From positions 35,949,501-36,013,500 of the forward strand of contig OX485805.1 of assembly GCA_950295325.1 (NCBI GenBank): a stretch of 64,000 bases of DNA. The letters are read 5' to 3'. The translations under genes and the position numbers were made by a program. The first letter of the stretch is position 1. Every line of letters begins with the position of its first letter. Positions 16,955-57,180 of the stretch are shown here, piece after piece. A model generated the notes under the pieces. That model was not told the origin of the DNA. It was given only the letters and a program-made list of their open reading frames with translations, and did no database searches. This DNA is from Polytrichum commune. Taxonomy: Eukaryota > Streptophyta > Polytrichopsida > Polytrichales > Polytrichaceae.

Positions 16955-18267
16955 CTCGGGGGGGGGCACTCCCTTGTATATTTTGCATACACCTGCGATA
17001 ATGACCTATTAAAATGGGGGCTATTTACCTATGAGAAAGGATTATAAGGGATGCTAATTTTTGAAATAATGGTAAATTGTTGTGATTATTTGTACCCTAT
17101 TGGTAATTATAAATTCTTGGATGGTTGATTTTATGGTACCCTATATTACTTATATGTAATTTTTTTCCCCTGATTGCCCTCATTCCTTAAAGTGTATGAT
17201 ACATTAGAATTCTCGTTAGAAGCACGTGTACAGAGTAAGAGAAACAAACATTTACTAGGGTTTAGGGTTCAGGGTCACATTGAAGTCCGGGCAAAGCAAA
17301 ACACTAAACAATAACAACAAAAGATTGCAATTACATGTCATTAAGCAACACGAGCCAACAAATAAAAGTTGTGTTGGATAACACAGTTAGAAACCTTGAG
17401 GTTTTAGGGAACATGCCAACCACATGTGTCTCAAAGTCACATTTACAAGGTTTGCAGAAGCCCTACAATTGATGCCTTGATCTTCCAATCCTACACATTG
17501 GAGGAAAATCCCACACCATGCAAGCAAAATCCACCTAAACTAGCTAGGCTACCATTTACACATGTGGGAGATATGAGGATACTCGAACTGAAATGACTAC
17601 TACAGATTTCAAGGTATACTAATGATCATTAAGCCTTTTTTCCAAATTATATCTCCACATGTGTGAGATAGTACAAATTTAGCATGTTTTATTTTTTATT
17701 TGAAATGAACTCACTCAATGAGTTTGCATCTACCTCATCTAAGGTGTAGATTTTGCTAGTTGATTCATACACTAGAGACACAGTTGAGATAATAGCATCC
17801 ACATCAACCCACACACAGTCACTCTCAACATACTTATATTTGTTGAGACCCGGCTATTTTTTGAACCAATGGAGGTAAGCCATAGCAGTTGGGAAGAACG
17901 TTTCTCTATTTCCGTTCTGGACTGCACGTTTCATCAAGTCAATGGGTTGCCAACAATTGCCCCACTTAGTACCAACCTTCACCCTTATCTTTTGAACCCT
18001 TCCTATATAGAACATGCCATATTTTGGTGGCAAAGTATTTAATTTTTGAAACTATCGCTTTTTCTCCATGCTATTTTATATGTACCACTTAGGTAATTTA
18101 ATCATGTTTTGTCAAATGCTATATTACATATAATCATGTTTCACAATCCCAGAGCACCCTATACTACATCTAATAATTTTACAAATTTTACGCCAAATTT
18201 TTATACAAGACCCTATATTTTATCGCACGTAGTTCCTACGTTTTTCGCCAGTGCCCCCCCCCCCGAG
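16955..18267. mobile_element. TIR transposon 'A', 8-bp TSD, CTCGGGGGG ends
   Basis: A 1313-bp DNA transposon flanked by a perfect 8-bp duplication CTTTGTGG (16947-16954 and 18268-18275). The left end reads CTCGGGGGGGGGCACT and the right end mirrors it with CAGTG followed by a C-run and GAG. An 8-bp TSD is typical of hAT, and also of KDZ and P-like elements; the TIR is not a classic hAT CAGGG. Inside, on the minus strand, is a C-terminal protein fragment (17689-18057). A related 287-bp element lies at 56553-56839. Confidence 0.9.
17689..18057 (-). pseudogene. Transposon A protein fragment (GRV/PIDLM family)
   Basis: Minus-strand frame reading KYGMFYIGRVQKIRVKVG, then a stretch containing PIDLMKR, then AMAYLHWFKK, an in-frame TAG at 17854-17856, and continuing as YKYVESDCVWVDVDAIIS to a stop at 17689-17691. 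It aligns along its length with the 213-residue ORF at 35562-36203 in element B1: GRV-x-K/R-hR-x-K-x-G, PIDLM, W-x3-K, V-D-h-x2-II. The N-terminal part is missing; the element is internally deleted and the gene is dead. The function is unknown to me; it is probably the C-terminal region of the element's transposase or an accessory protein. Confidence 0.7.
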
Positions 18268-35229: not shown

Positions 35230-35318
35230 AGGCTCTCTACACATGCCACACACGTTCAAAAACGTCGGTTTTGATATAGAGTTTGGTGTGCCATGGTAAA
35301 AATAATTTAAGCCTAGAC

Positions 35319-36747
35319 CTCAGGGGGTGCACCTTTCATTAAAACCTAGAATCACGTGCGTTCACTGCATACTCTAAAAACCCCCTATATACAAGCTATT
35401 TTTTGTGAAATGAAGTAATACACATACAATTGCAACAATAAATATACAAGTAAAAATATGTATACACAAAAAAACATCCATTCATATATAGTCATTAACA
35501 TAAGTATACAAATATATTTTTGAACAATAATCAACCCCTATAATATGTATAACAAAATATCCTAGCTTTCATCAGCAAAGTCGTTGAAAACTTTTTCATC
35601 TCCCGGATGTAACTCATAAACATTTGATTCACCAATATATGTCATTATAGCCAATGCAATTATTGTCTCTAAGTCTACCATCAAATGATCAGTAAGATCA
35701 TATGTCCACTTGTTGTTAGCCCCTTTTTGATACCAACATAAACCAATCTCCACGTTTGATGGACGGTCCATCAAGTCAATTGGATCCCTATACTCCACCC
35801 CACGATTACCAAACTTCCTCCGCATCCTATAAACTCTCCCAACAAACCAAACCTCAACTCGAGTAGATTTTTTTGGCCTACCTCGTTTTTTCACAGTTTT
35901 AGCTTTAGGTGTGTTCAAAAAACACACAACACAGTCACAACCAAGCTTTGACAAAGTGTCATGGTTTCCAACACTCAGGAGTTTAGGCTTCATATATAAT
36001 ATGCCAGCTCTAATTCGAGTCAACCGATCTTTACACAAAGGATTGGCATTCAATTGACTAACAAGTGTACTTTTAAAAATTCTAGACTCCCCTACCATTA
36101 CATAAGCCACAACTGACTTTGCGTTTGATAAAGAGGGAATTTCAGAACGAGGCCATGACAATGTCAGGACTTTCGGTGATTCCCACGGCAGCAGTAACTG
36201 CAAGGATGCTGAGAAGTGCTGGAAGCAACAGGTGAAAGAATGAAAAGTAAAGTAGTTGTCGGAAAAAAAAAAAGCAGGCTATGCAAGAAGAGAAAAAAAA
36301 AACCTTCGGCGCTCGACTAGAAGAGAAAACAAAAACCTTCAGCGCCCGACAAAAAGAGAAAACAAAAACCTAGGGATGGGAGGGGAAAAGGGTCCTTGTT
36401 ACTTTGAGCTAAACGAATCATTTCAGACCCCTAATACTGCCTCTTTCCCCAATATTACCTTGATACCTTGTACATGGTTCATACAACCCTATAAGGTTGC
36501 TAACAAAAATCGTTAATCCTAGTTAATCTTAATTTCATCCAATATGAAAACTTATGATATGTAGTATAGTAACACTATCATACAAGTACAATTATTGTAT
36601 ACTTTTTAAAGGCCTTCCATATATGTACGTAACTATAAATTATAACATGTATACCATATGTATACGTAATACGGCAAGGTCCAAATCAATACCCCTCCTG
36701 TGCACTCACCTATACTCGTACATGTTTAGTACAGTGCACCCCCCGAG
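35319..36747. mobile_element. TIR transposon B1, 8-bp TSD, carries 213-aa ORF
   Basis: A 1429-bp element with a perfect 8-bp TSD GCCTAGAC (35311-35318 and 36748-36755). The left end reads CTCAGGGGGTGCACC and the right end GTGCACCCCCCGAG. It is the best-preserved member of a family with copies at 37368-38624, 44515-44803 and 50421-51466. It carries a minus-strand ORF at 35562-36203. The right third (about 36204-36747) is partly deleted relative to B2, which keeps more of the protein's N-terminal side. Confidence 0.9.
35562..36203 (-). CDS. Transposon-encoded protein, GRV/PIDLM family (unknown)
   Basis: A 213-residue open frame inside element B1, the longest intact member of a protein family shared by at least three elements in the window. 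Visible segments: SVVAYVMVGESRIFKSTLVS, GILYMKPKLLSVGNHDTLSK, a basic AT-hook-like KKRGRPKK, the core VWFVGRVYRMRRKFGN, RDPIDLMDRPSNVEIGLCWY, and a C-terminal part NKWTYDLTDHLMVDLETIIA then an acidic tail. Copies in B2 and A align along the last ~130 residues. The upstream part in B2 adds a predicted helix (VENDLQEYVELQSELQHALD) just before this start, so the true protein is longer and this ORF is truncated at its N terminus. No catalytic motif of a known transposase is evident. I infer a transposase C-terminus or an accessory DNA-binding protein. Confidence 0.65.
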   Translation of the reverse strand: MQLLLPWESPKVLTLSWPRSEIPSLSNAKSVVAYVMVGESRIFKSTLVSQLNANPLCKDRLTRIRAGILYMKPKLLSVGNHDTLSKLGCDCVVCFLNTPKAKTVKKRGRPKKSTRVEVWFVGRVYRMRRKFGNRGVEYRDPIDLMDRPSNVEIGLCWYQKGANNKWTYDLTDHLMVDLETIIALAIMTYIGESNVYELHPGDEKVFNDFADES

Positions 36748-36753
36748 GCCTAG

Positions 36754-37062
36754 ACATGTGCCTAACCTTGAGCTTGGTTTCAAGATTGGTCCCTCGTTTA
36801 TTTGGTTAGAAACATCCCCGTTTTCAACTCCGATCATAAACAGAGGTTTCGAGCCTTACAAAATCATTGATCTCTCATATTGGAGTTGAAAACATACGAT
36901 TCTACCCAATAAGAGAGGGACGATCCTTGAAACCAAGCTCCTCAAGGTTGGACTGGGGTGAACCAACCCGTACATCAGTTCCTTGGAGACAAGGGTTTAG
37001 ACATCCAACAAGAAACGAGTGTATGGGTTAGTTCGCCCAAATCCCCAAGGTTAGGCACATGT
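36754..37062. mobile_element. Fold-back element with nested inverted repeats
   Basis: Perfect 17-bp terminal inverted repeats ACATGTGCCTAACCTTG (36754-36770) and its complement (37046-37062). Inside are two more imperfect inverted pairs: about 36773-36835 with 36882-36950 (CTTGGTTTCAAG, GTCCCTC and GTTTTCAACTCC blocks), and GGGTGAACCAACCCGTACA with its counterpart near 37018-37038. It starts directly at the right TSD of element B1. It is non-coding and probably a MITE. Confidence 0.75.
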
Positions 37063-37330
37063 TAAGGCCAGAATATCTTTTACCTTGTCCCACCTAAGTC
37101 CGTTTCAAAACCCAGTTTTTCAAACATTGGTGGCCTCCACATGAGATAAGCCTCCTCCGGTGGATAGAAGAGGAAGAGGGGGTCACGGCGGAGCTCCTAC
37201 GTGAGAGGACACATCTGATTGAATGAGCTTTGAAGAGTCCACCACTTAGGCAAAGTTTGGGCCTCCTTAGCTTCTTACTTTCAACTTATAATCTGCTCCA
37301 TTACTTAAGAAGTTACACGGTTTATGTCAA

Positions 37331-37360
37331 TTAGTGTGGATTAGTGTGGATCAGTGTGGA
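37331..37360 (+). repeat. Three 10-bp tandem repeats next to B2
   Basis: Three units of TTAGTGTGGA (the third is TCAGTGTGGA) directly before the TSD of element B2. Confidence 0.8.
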
Positions 37361-37367
37361 TTGACAT

Positions 37368-38624
37368 CCAGGGGGTTGCACCTTTCAATTAAAACCAAGA
37401 ACCATGTGTGTTCGCAATATACTCTAAAAAAAATCCCTATATACAATTTCTTTTTTGTAAAATCAAGCAACACACATACAATTTGAATGATGAAAATACC
37501 AGTGACAATGTGTATACATAAAAAATAAAAAATAAAGTGCATTCATATATAGTCATTAACATACATATACAAATATACTTTTGGATAATAATGAACCCCT
37601 ATCATATGTATAATGTAAAACCCTAGCATTTATTAATAAAGTCATTGAAGACTTTTTCATCCCCCGGATGTAACTCATAAGCATCTAAGTCTATAATATA
37701 TGTCATAGAAGCTAATGCAATTATTGTTTCTAACTCTACCATCAAATGATCCTAAGATCGTAAGTCCACTTATTGTTGGTTCTTATTGGATATCAACATA
37801 AGTCGATGTCCATGTTTGATGGACAGTCCATCAAGTCAATTGGATCCCTATTCTCCACTTGATGATTACCAAATTTTCTACCCATCTTATTAACCCTCCC
37901 AACAAACCAAACCTTGATTAAAGCTAAATTCTTTGATCTCCCACATTTCTTGACAATTATAACTTCAGGTGTATTCAAAATCACAACCAAGATTTAACAT
38001 AGTATCATGATGTGTGTCGGTAAAGAATTTAGGCTTCATATATAATATGCCAACCTTAATCCAAATCGATCGATCTTTAGATAAAGTTGGATTGCCATTC
38101 AATTGATTAACAAGCGTGCTTTTGAAAATTCTATACTCCCATACATAAGCCACAATAGACTTTACATTAGATCAAAAGGGCATTTCAACATTTTCATGTT
38201 CATCAAGTAGAACATCCAAGGCATGTTGAAGCTCACTTTGCAACTCCACATATTCTTGTAAATCGTTTTCAACCTACAACTACATCAATTCCATCTCTAT
38301 GACAACATCCTTGCACATGTTTGAATTGTCTTCTCCAACACTACAATTTTCCTTGTCGCCACCTTGTGCACTAGAATCATCAATCGATGTGTGATCATAA
38401 TCACATCCTCCTCCATACTTGAGCCTCAATAAATGAGCCTCAATAAGTGACCCTACCATACAAGTATAAATGTTGTATACTTTCTAGAGGTCCTCCATAC
38501 ATGTACATAACTACAAGTTATAATTTGTGTAGCATATGTGTACGTAATACCAAAAAGTTCAAATTAATACCCCTTTTGTGCACTCTCGTATACTCATACG
38601 TGTTATGAATGGTGCACCTCCTGG
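37368..38624. mobile_element. TIR transposon B2, 8-bp TSD, decayed
   Basis: A 1257-bp relative of B1 with ends CCAGGGGGTTGCACC and GGTGCACCTCCTGG and an 8-bp TSD with one mismatch (ATTGACAT 37360-37367, ATTGACGT 38625-38632). It is in the same orientation as B1 and about 600 bp away. It keeps sequence absent from B1 (about 38170-38430) that on minus reads as more N-terminal protein, including VENDLQEYVELQSELQHALD, before the part shared with B1. Frameshifts and stops break the gene. Confidence 0.85.
37630..38435 (-). pseudogene. B2 copy of GRV/PIDLM protein (broken)
   Basis: Minus-strand fragments: KYGGGCDYDHTSIDDSSAQG near 38410, the helix VENDLQEYVELQSELQHALD near 38270-38210, YRIFKSTLVNQLNGNP and GILYMKPKFF (38153-37965), then VKKCGRSKN and VWFVGRVNKMGRKFGN with RDPIDLMDCPSN (37990-37793). 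It aligns with the B1 ORF but has frame breaks near 37970 and 37790 and stops near 38170 and 38280. It shows the intact ancestor had at least ~90 residues upstream of the B1 ORF start. Confidence 0.68.
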
Positions 38625-38632
38625 ATTGACGT

Positions 38633-44514: not shown

Positions 44515-44803
44515 CTTGGTGGGTGCATTGTTACATATGTATAGTTAACTTTGTACATATGATAGAGTTTGATTGTTATTCCAAAGCATATTTGTATACT
44601 TATGCTTGTGACTATATACGAATGTGAATTTTATGTATGCATATTGTCACTTGAATTTTTATCATTGAAATTGTACAAGTATTGCTTAATTTCACACCCC
44701 CCCCCCCTCCCCCTGGAAAAAACCCTTGTACATAGGGGCATTTTAAAGTACGTTGCACATGCACATGATTGCTAGTTTTAACGAAAGGTGCATTCCCTCC
44801 AGA
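44515..44803. mobile_element. Short B-family deletion derivative (289 bp)
   Basis: The ends CTTGGTGGGTGCATTGT and AAGGTGCATTCCCTCCAGA match the B family. The TSD is 8 bp with one mismatch (GTTTATTC 44507-44514, GCTTATTC 44804-44811). The interior matches only the reverse complement of the left ~240 bp of B1 (35319-35560), so the whole coding part has been lost. A C-rich run sits at 44695-44710. This shows how the family makes MITE-like derivatives. Confidence 0.8.
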
Positions 44804-50412: not shown

Positions 50413-50640
50413 ATGTTATCCTCAGAGGGTGCAATGTACCAAACACATATGCCTATACGTCAGTGCACAAAAAGGTATTAATTTGAACTTTGTCGTATTA
50501 CATGTACATATGCTACATAAATTCTAACCCGTAGTTATGTACATGTATGAAGGACCTTTTGGAAATATACAACATTCGTACTTGTATGATAGTGCAACAT
50601 ACTTTATTGCATAGTTTTTTTCATTTTGGCTTATTTAGCA

Positions 50641-50808
50641 TCAAAAGGAACCAACAACAACTGGACATACGATCTTATTGATCATTTGATGATAGACTTA
50701 AAAACAATAATTGCATTAGCTTTTATGACATGTACTACAAACTTACATGCTCGTGAGTTAAAGACTTTATTGAAAAGGTCTTTGATGGCTTTATTGATGA
50801 ATGCCCAC
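50641..50808 (+). pseudogene. B3 copy of GRV/PIDLM protein C-terminus
   Basis: Reads GTNNNWTYDLIDHLMIDLKT then IIALAFMT, matching GANNKWTYDLTDHLMVDLET in the B1 ORF. The reading continues to DALLMNA-like sequence where MITE M interrupts it; the ancestral ...GC|TAGGATATT stop context resumes after the MITE at 51220. Everything upstream of the W-T-Y-D-L part is deleted. Confidence 0.7.
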
Positions 50809-51213
50809 GGGGAGATCACTTCATTGTCAAGTTGACACCACGTGCGGACAAAGTTTGCTACCCCTATATTACATGCCATATATAATTTTAAAGTTTATGA
50901 TATTTTTTCTACATATACATAACCATTGATAATATCTTTTGTATATTTTTCTGAAATTTTTAGTCATCTTTGTTTTTTTAGTAATTGTTTTAGTTCGATT
51001 TTGTGTCATTCTAGTTAGAAACAGTATGTTTTATGAAAAAACAAATCATCAAATTTAGTTACCACTTTTAACTATGTCATAGGTACTGTGTATATCTACT
51101 CATGAAAACAATTTGATAAAATTTTGACCCATTTTAGTGGTGCAATTTACCAAAAGAAGATTTTTTTTGGTCGCATGTGGTGTTCAACTTGACAATGGAG
51201 TGACCTCCCCGTG
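50806..51213. mobile_element. 408-bp MITE 'M', copy 2, nested in B3
   Basis: The inverted ends CACGGGGAGATCACTTCATT and the complementary right end (GGAGTGACCTCCCCGTG) match copy 1 (43702-44108) and the interiors match closely. The TSD is TGAATGCC / TGAATGCT (50798-50805, 51214-51221), 7 of 8. Comparison with element B1, which lacks the insertion at the same place, confirms the insertion point. Confidence 0.93.
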
Positions 51214-51574
51214 TGAATGCTAGGATATTGCATTATATATTTTCATAGGGGTTGATTGTAATTTAGAAGTGAATTTGTATATTTATGTTAATGCCTACAC
51301 ATGAATGACATTGTGCTATGTATTAATGTTGTCACTTGTATTTTGTCATTGAAATTGTATGTATATTGCATTATTTTACAAGGATAAACTTGTAGGGGGG
51401 GGGGGGGGGTTAGAGTATGTTGTGACACAGATGATTCTTGGTTTTAATGGAAGGTGCACCTCCGGGATTGTATCATGGCAACATGGCATGGCCTAAGTGA
51501 CCATTAAAACAATGTGTAAGCGAATTTCATTGGTTATAGTTTGGTTGAAGCGGGCTATTTCTAAATATCTACAT

Positions 51575-51926
51575 GTTTCATCTAGCCTTGATCCAAGTCA
51601 ATTGATCTTTAAATAAAGTTGGATTGCCGTTCAGTTGACTAACAAGTGTACATTTGAAAATTCTAAAATCCCCTACCTCAACATAAGCCACAATGAACTT
51701 CACACTAAAAGATCTTATGTTTTCAAGTCTAGTGATACTAGCATACAAATGTTGTGCATGTTTTATAGGTCCTCCATACATATACATAACTACGAGTTAT
51801 AATTTGTGTCGCATGTGTATACAAAATACGGCAAGTTCAAATTGATACCTACTTTTGTGCACTCACATATACTCGTACGTGTTGAGCATAGTCACAAAGT
51901 GTCACTCCCCCCCCCCCCCCCTTTTG
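51575..51926. mobile_element. B-family fragment B4
   Basis: Same orientation as B1; matches its middle and right parts: TGACTAACAAGTGTAC, CCCTACCTCAACATAAGCCA, and later TACGGCAAG...GTGCACTCACATATACTCGTACGTG. On minus this includes RIFKCTLVSQLNGNP of the shared protein. It ends at a 16-C run (about 51907-51922) in place of the usual TIR. The left boundary is unclear. Confidence 0.65.
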
Positions 51927-55899: not shown

Positions 55900-57180
55900 C
55901 CCTTAGAAGACCTAAACGCACTTCTCACAAACCAAACTGACTTAGCCACCCCCCTCACTTGCTAGTTAAACTACACACACTAAACTACATTGCTCTAAAT
56001 AAATAAATATTTTCTATAGGCATCCCCAAAACAAAATAAAATCATACACACCATACAACACCTCACTAAAATATTTCCCCACTCACACGCATCCTCATAC
56101 AATTATGAACGAAACCCCCACTGCATACCAAACTACCGCTTGTCCAAACTCACAACAAAAAATTCCATTAGAAAAAATTCCATTAGAAAAAATTGAATGA
56201 AACATAATACTTAGTTGCTTACTTCTTTTAACATGTGGCAATATTGTAGCCAACATGAGGCCCATGTCATACCTCTTACAAAACACCCGGCTAACCATAA
56301 AAAACAAAATAAGACATATTGTATAATAATCACAATAGAATTACAACATGAATACCAACACCTAACCAAATCCTTCAAAATCCTATTCAAACCCACACAC
56401 CCCTAACACACATAAACCACATTATCACATTCCCACCTACACACCTACATACAATAACATACCTACCATCCCTCTCCAAGAATCACATATGCTCTAATAA
56501 TCAAAATGAACCCCTCCATTGAAACTTGCAACCTACAACTTCAGCAACTACCCTCGGGGGGTTCACTCCCTCTTATATTTTGCATACACGTGCGTTCATG
56601 ACCTATTTATTGGGGGGGTTATTTACCTTGCAGAAAAGATTATAAGGTGATGGTATTTTACATGTAAAAAGCCTGAAAATATTATATGTGATGGTATTTT
56701 ACATGTAAACATGTTTCACTATTTTAAAATCCCCTATTTTACATGTAAAATTTTTCCAAATTTTATCTACAATGAATATATTGGACCCTATTTTTTTATC
56801 GCATGTTGTTCTACGATTTTCGCCAGTGAACCCCCCGAGCAACTACCAACCCCATAGTAGAACCTTCAACTTCTTGGATAAATAACAAGACTCTCCAACC
56901 CAGTAAGAAGATACATAGAGACCCCACACCCGTATATCCAATTTTACAACACGGAACTCGACCAAATTCCCCCCTACACACCATCCATAGGAAACTCAAC
57001 AAATATATATACCTTAACCTAGAACTTCCAAGCCTCATGACCTTGCAAAGACAATTCCTGTACATACCCGCACAACTCACCAAAGCATTAAGGTGCAATG
57101 AACCCTTAATAGAGTACATACAACCCCTACAAACCCCAAACATTCATCCTATCCCACAACAACACCACTCTTAATAAGCC
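55900..57180 (+). pseudogene. AC-rich LINE-like remnant, split by a MITE
   Basis: Strongly strand-asymmetric (A/C-rich on plus) like the clear LINE remnant at 60.3-62.9 kb. Near the right end, plus-strand text reads LNLELPSLMTLQRQFLYIPA, then QLTKALRCNEPLIEYIQ and PNIHPIPQQHH, resembling the region after the RT catalytic core of a LINE. Other parts are too decayed to place. The 287-bp element at 56553-56839 interrupts it with an 8-bp TSD. Confidence 0.45.
56553..56839. mobile_element. TIR element 'A' derivative, 287 bp, 8-bp TSD
   Basis: The TSD CAACTACC is perfect (56545-56552, 56840-56847). The ends CTCGGGGGGTTCACTCCCTC and AGTGAACCCCCCGAG match element A (16955-18267), as do the subterminal texts TATATTTTGCATACAC and ATTTTCGCCAGTG. 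The interior holds three ATTTTACATGTAAA motifs and no ORF. It is a MITE-size deletion derivative of the A family. Confidence 0.93.

Follow-up and report, generated by a model that had tools for sequence, protein, structure and literature searches.

In the window analysed here, a stretch of 64,000 nucleotides from Polytrichum commune (GenBank assembly GCA_950295325.1, contig OX485805.1, positions 35,949,501 to 36,013,500, forward strand), two repeats, B1 and B2, share an unnamed protein. B1 and B2 are very probably non-autonomous copies, shortened by internal deletion, of a large DNA transposon of 5.8–9.1 kb that moves by cut-and-paste, encodes a protein of about 1,500 aa and is P-like in layout, although we do not assign it to superfamily P. 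As judged from the sequences, the finding of an unnamed protein is real, and this protein is the tail of a longer one, from a transposase-like family that is uncatalogued and has intact relatives. We read the family as a putative lineage of DDE cut-and-paste transposons within the C/DxxH group, as yet uncatalogued and like P in its layout.

Both elements occupy the positions given in the original prediction, and both show the G-rich terminal inverted repeats (TIRs) and 8-bp target site duplications (TSDs) described there. B1 (35319–36747, minus strand) is a putative non-autonomous element of 1,429 bp with its interior deleted, and is flanked by GCCTAGAC on the left (35311–35318) and by the same sequence on the right (36748–36755). 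Its left TIR, CTCAGGGGGTGCACC (35319–35333, plus strand), corresponds to the 3' end of the parent element described below, and its right TIR, CTCGGGGGGTGCACT (36733–36747, minus strand), is the 5' end of the element. B2 (37368–38624, minus strand; 1,257 bp), likewise putatively non-autonomous, has the termini CCAGGGGG / CCAGGAGG, and its TSDs, ATTGACAT (37360–37367) and ATTGACGT (38625–38632), agree at 7 of 8 bases. B1 and B2 align over 840 bp with 77% identity, and B2 matches the 9.1-kb parent-type element at 77–78% over 1,099 and 176 bp; on these comparisons, B2 is a member of a sister subfamily to that of B1.

Relatives of the repeat that hosts B1 exist without it, as paralogous empty sites, and these indicate that B1 is an insertion. 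Searching with the flanks of B1 joined through a single TSD copy (153-nt query; 40 of 500 candidates scored and one alignment inspected) yielded 57 listed matches in the genome, of which 53 cross the junction; among the other four, two are the flanks of B1 itself and two touch one side only. Many of the flank matches pair on opposite strands, as in a hairpin-like repeat, so that the real copies are fewer than 53. With regard to the excision or empty sites expected from cut-and-paste movement, the paralogous empty sites of B1 all come from relatives of a dispersed repeat. This host repeat, interrupted by B1 and lying at 35249–35318 and 36756–37069, is hairpin-like, with inverted arms.

The genome searched was that of the window itself (G000; 408 Mb in 64 contigs, seven of them chromosome-sized), and it contains a full-length relative of B1. 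At C4:55005007–55014154 (the L003 locus) lies a 9,148-bp element with both TIRs and the TSD GTTTATTT on each side, to which B1 aligns with 95.7% identity over the first 418 bp and 96.4% over the last 829 bp. The parent 5' end kept in B1 (36330–36747, minus strand) includes the subterminal motif ATAGGTGAG. Because B1 retains only the two ends of the parent, it appears to derive from such an element by internal deletion, with the same TIRs and subterminal DNA as the coding element and the interior lost, as in miniature inverted-repeat transposable elements (MITEs). Positions 419–603 of B1 are absent from the C4 copy, and positions 443–611 match a 2,982-bp copy (L007) at 91%.

This relationship changes the reading of the minus-strand protein that B1 and B2 had been said to share. 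The 213-aa open reading frame (ORF) of B1 (35562–36203, minus strand) is real; however, it is not a separate gene, but the truncated tail of the protein of about 1,500 aa. Its positions 36143–35565 correspond to about the last 194 residues of the parent protein (93% identity to L003), in which its first 20 or so residues have no counterpart. The version in B2, a decayed C-terminal region of the putative transposase (37638–38444, minus strand), has in-frame stops.

Matches to the B1 ORF number at least 151 in the genome (150 of 2,851 candidates scored). In turn, a 520-aa query from the middle part of the protein, which covers the catalytic region, gave 86 matches from 83 of 264 candidates scored, nine of them free of stops and within open frames of at least 1,490 aa. 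The protein of the C4 copy is split into three ORFs of 385, 252 and 794 aa. Among 12 fetched pieces, including one that is an upstream piece only, ORFs counted from the first ATG exceed 1,000 aa in ten and 1,300 aa in eight, and measure 1,490–1,509 aa in seven. Thirteen long loci were checked for ends (L007, L010–L020 and the C4 element; L004–L006 are outside the count), and ten have both ends and an 8-bp TSD, perfect in eight and with one mismatch in two; a single open frame of 1,490–1,509 aa is present in six of these ten. These six are the L010 (8,426 bp; perfect TSD GAAATCAC; ORF of 1,509 aa), L012 (8,423 bp; perfect TSD ACCATTGC; 1,509 aa), L016 (6,880 bp; TSD GGGTGGCA; 1,499 aa), L015 (8,315 bp; TSD agreeing at 7 of 8 bases; 1,496 aa), L013 (5,802 bp; TSD TCTAGATT; 1,493 aa) and L014 (6,351 bp; TSD AAAGAAAC; 1,490 aa) loci. 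Shorter frames are found in L018 (6,034 bp; TSD CTCAGCTC; 1,150 aa) and L019 (5,800 bp; TSD GTAACGAG; 1,083 aa), and the 2,982-bp L007 copy lies between GGCAAAAC and GGCAGAAC. L010 and L012 are 99.5% identical across 6.7 kb and have different TSDs; being near-identical copies at different targets, they make the movement of the family look recent.

L018 and L019 form a divergent subfamily, with 28% identity to L013, and each has a separate ORF (410 and 363 aa, respectively) upstream of the main frame; that of L018 had no significant match in Pfam. In the elements at the L010, L012 and L016 loci, the G-tracts of the two TIRs are of unequal length.

As a check, the original prediction had proposed to look for copies of greater length in which a transposase precedes the shared domain, and the long copies agree with this expectation: they carry the protein of about 1,500 aa, in which D, D, DxxH and E are invariant and lie ahead of the C-terminal piece. 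In an alignment of 18 sequences, the invariant residues are D701, D820, D822, D867, H870 and E1062 in L013 numbering (D271, D390, D392, D437, H440 and E632 in A3 numbering), and the spacing in L013 is 119 residues from D701 to D820, 47 from D820 to D867 and 195 from D867xxH870 to E1062. From these features we infer that the protein is a transposase, with these residues as its catalytic centre, an RNase H fold, binding to the termini and activity in trans. It would consist of an N-terminal zinc-finger-like region, a coiled-coil-like stretch, a DDE (RNase H-like) region interrupted between DxxH and E by an insertion of about 195 residues, and a C-terminal domain. Upstream of the catalytic region there are Cys/His patterns that resemble, by eye, BED or C2H2 fingers, and a coiled-coil-like stretch whose match to the GCN4 zipper (E 0.84) was the sole PDB profile match. 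The AT-hook-like KKRGRPKK earlier ascribed to the protein did not hold, scoring 12.1 bits against a Pfam cut-off of 17.4 and not being kept in relatives such as L010, L013 and L018. The protein would bind the G-rich TIRs, and perhaps also the subterminal ATAGGTGAG, which is common to the 5' ends of B1, L013 and L014; it would then excise the element and reinsert it at an 8-bp stagger, and copies without the catalytic part, of about 1.4 kb and 716 bp, would be moved in trans.

Short copies are abundant. Both ends and an 8-bp TSD (14 perfect, two with one mismatch) were found at 16 of 17 short loci, which include size classes of 1,383–1,432 bp (12 loci) and 716 bp (4 loci); at L066, the right end was not found within its piece. 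Because 14 of the 17 loci were chosen for an exact TIR at one end, only their other end and the TSD count as independent evidence. The terminus CTCRGGGGGTGCACC has 294 exact copies in the genome, far above chance as judged from the single copy of a reversed-pattern control.

Several results weigh against B1 and B2 being deletion copies of such a transposon. No significant match was found in Pfam for any of 12 members, some of which lack the N-terminus, or for a 760-aa consensus, nor was anything significant found in PDB profile searches. No ends were found for three of the 13 long loci (L017 in 11.3 kb; L011 and L020 in unextended pieces of 7.3–7.4 kb), and the AlphaFold2 model of the C-terminal piece, built from the window fragments only, had a mean pLDDT (predicted local distance difference test) of 34.6. 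Further, very close pairs are little constrained in their nonsynonymous (dN) relative to synonymous (dS) divergence (L010/L012, dN 0.004 and dS 0.005), and L003, L004 and L007 have pairwise dN/dS of 0.76–0.89. Weak constraint of this kind would be expected for recent or decaying copies, and is no proof of present function. In favour of the transposon, dN between L013 and L014 is 0.186 with dS saturated, which indicates that the protein is constrained between lineages.

The lack of a Pfam model agrees with the original prediction, which had recognised no known transposase family in the protein. The library itself found DUF659, which we take to be hAT-associated, in a different ORF from this genome (5.4e-34). 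Altogether, searches of Pfam, NCBIfam and PDB with the tail, the whole protein, alignments and the consensus retrieved no family, and short peptide patterns, which distant relatives could escape, found no relatives in viral contigs or prokaryote genomes. Likewise, a literature search of partial coverage, with few subscription journals, retrieved no description of such a plant family, and the accessible part of a plant review names seven TIR superfamilies, neither P nor a comparable one among them (PMC10741241).

It is quite possible, if somewhat less probable than its opposite, that the transposase belongs, in strongly diverged form, to the P superfamily (Drosophila P, THAP9; PDB 6p5a), with a GTP-domain-like insertion and other zinc fingers in place of THAP. 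According to excerpts of two papers, the Drosophila P signature is D230, D303, D339xxH and E531, with residues 339–528 as an insertion; the same D, D, DxxH, insertion, E order occurs here, with spacings of 119, 47 and 195 versus 73, 36 and 192 in P (PMC8230255, PMC7776569). The likeness extends to the 8-bp TSD of the superfamily, present with at most one mismatch at 16 of the 17 short and 10 of the 13 long loci, to the length of the insertion (about 190–195 residues) and to the existence of internally deleted copies. Invariant columns reproduce the signature D, D, [C/D](2)H, E and its insertion, as a pattern of putative catalytic role, and the best local alignment of hhalign places the first-D block on the D230 block of P (P-value 0.23). 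When the blocks were tested individually, that of the first D scored highest exactly at the D230 site; at their expected sites, two others came second and another came third. In addition, a YIDIF stretch (D969; E in L018 and L019) stands at the place of WFDIF in P, where D444 is given, in the portions of the sources available, as binding GTP.

Against membership in P, there is no significant sequence or profile similarity. In three hhalign set-ups against a single P chain, P-values were 0.23, 0.16 and 0.19, none of them significant; the best alignment fell at an implausible place in the last two, and in the third the real sequence was outscored by 10 or more of 60 shuffled versions of P. In a test of chained blocks, 16 of 400 shuffles did at least as well as the real sequence, with the six blocks picked after the resemblance had been seen, and the second-D and E blocks did not come among the three best in the expected register. 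For PF21787, which models the RNase H region of P, the genome gave no hit at E ≤ 10, but its control likewise matched nowhere. No THAP match was found in the Pfam scan of the 12 members, and THAP is said to be confined to animals. The present family further differs from P in a long C-terminal extension and in its CTCGGGG-type termini. Its protein is also about twice as long as the Drosophila P transposase, which has 751 aa.

We give nearly an even chance to the tentative proposal that the family represents a superfamily of DDE transposases in the C/DxxH group that has yet to be described, with intact and recently mobile members in a land plant and perhaps with relatives in animals. For the last point, a 382-aa rotifer-type animal sequence without accession aligned over 351 columns (hhalign E 3.9e-23); its letters are unverified and were set down after the alignment had been seen, and we take it as a lead only. 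Standard annotation of transposable elements would miss such a superfamily because no profile for it exists, and its many short derivatives (294 exact termini for one subfamily) would stand as unclassified repeats. If the family proves to be P-like, P-type transposition would extend to land plants, and if not, a superfamily has been missing; either way, annotators would gain a profile by which many MITEs bearing 8-bp TSDs could be classified. Mobility can be tested directly on the intact copies that are nearly identical.

It is unlikely that the elements belong to one of the ordinary hAT, MULE, KDZ or Kolobok groups and merely have a transposase that has diverged, even though the TSD length left several of these families eligible. 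In the accessible portions of the sources, 8-bp TSDs are also attributed to hAT (PMC10741241) and to Zisupton and Dileera, which belong with Kyakuja (7-bp TSDs and no TIRs) to KDZ (PMC12730594); MULE TSDs span 7–12 bp, so that length alone fits (PMC10741241). As far as the same partial sources go, hAT shares with the present family its short TIRs and the C/DxxH motif group, and is common in plants. However, neither the 12 members nor the consensus contained a hAT, MULE or KDZ transposase domain in Pfam, or matched any other Pfam model, although DUF659 was detected elsewhere in the genome. The KDZ transposase model was presumably included in that library. The scanned ORFs were also without the dioxygenase domain, a difference from KDZ. 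Compared with hAT, the protein is much longer, and its E motif, SDSCEIFFS, is in our understanding unlike the hAT C-terminal motif. The Kolobok target, TTAA, does not fit the target sites found here. KDZ and MULE were set aside for want of a Pfam domain and Kolobok for its target.

The original prediction had argued that the protein, being conserved across copies, was under selection; an independent 213-aa protein that selection maintains in the short elements now seems very improbable. B1 and 13 of 20 fetched B1-type copies are free of stops in the compared region. However, the C-terminal frame of these 21 copies (B1 plus 20 fetched from the best protein matches, a bias toward conservation) has a dN/dS of 1.17 in pairwise comparisons and 0.95 for singleton changes, with six singleton stops, and a ratio of about 1 means that no selection is seen on the retained fragment. 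All 20 fetched copies match the first residues of B1, absent from the parent protein. Besides, the fragment is the tail of a full-length protein, and the 716-bp class has lost more of it, yet has perfect TSDs at all four loci.

That the elements merely carry an ordinary host gene which they have captured is hardly credible and was rejected: the 9.1-kb C4 copy does contain a host gene fragment (DUF1295, 3.9e-28), but the protein of about 1,500 aa occurs repeatedly in elements whose ends are of one kind, extends to lineages with as little as 28% identity to L013 that have TSD-flanked elements of their own, and matches neither a host gene nor a catalogued transposase C-terminus, the two outcomes named beforehand as refuting. 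The DUF1295 fragment, which is steroid dehydrogenase-like, indicates that the family can capture genes.

Other fragments of the family are scattered in the window. A broken-up further copy on the plus strand (50421–51463) comprises a 5' end (50421–50629) and pieces of the 3' region (50626–50734 and 51214–51463), and is followed by two more pieces in the opposite orientation (51596–51892, minus strand; 51596–51692 and 51744–51892); overall, 50421–51892 consists of rearranged family fragments in both orientations. A fragment of the 3' region (44515–44792, plus strand) matches at 72% over 44551–44792 and adjoins a TIR-like sequence at 44515 with 3 of 14 bases off, and a C-terminal fragment of another subfamily (17692–18018, minus strand) has 47% identity to L016 and one in-frame stop. 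There is also a 287-bp element (56553–56839) with CTCGGGGGGTTCAC at each end and a perfect 8-bp TSD, CAACTACC, on both sides; its GTTCAC end is similar to that of L014. Elsewhere in the genome, an ORF with DUF659 (L005:3710–5074) adjoins a relative of the family, and LEAFY-type matches, the mark of a land plant and perhaps of one outside the seed plants, occur at C1:40571425–40572195, C1:62298386–62299612 and C7:8635861–8637757 of G000.

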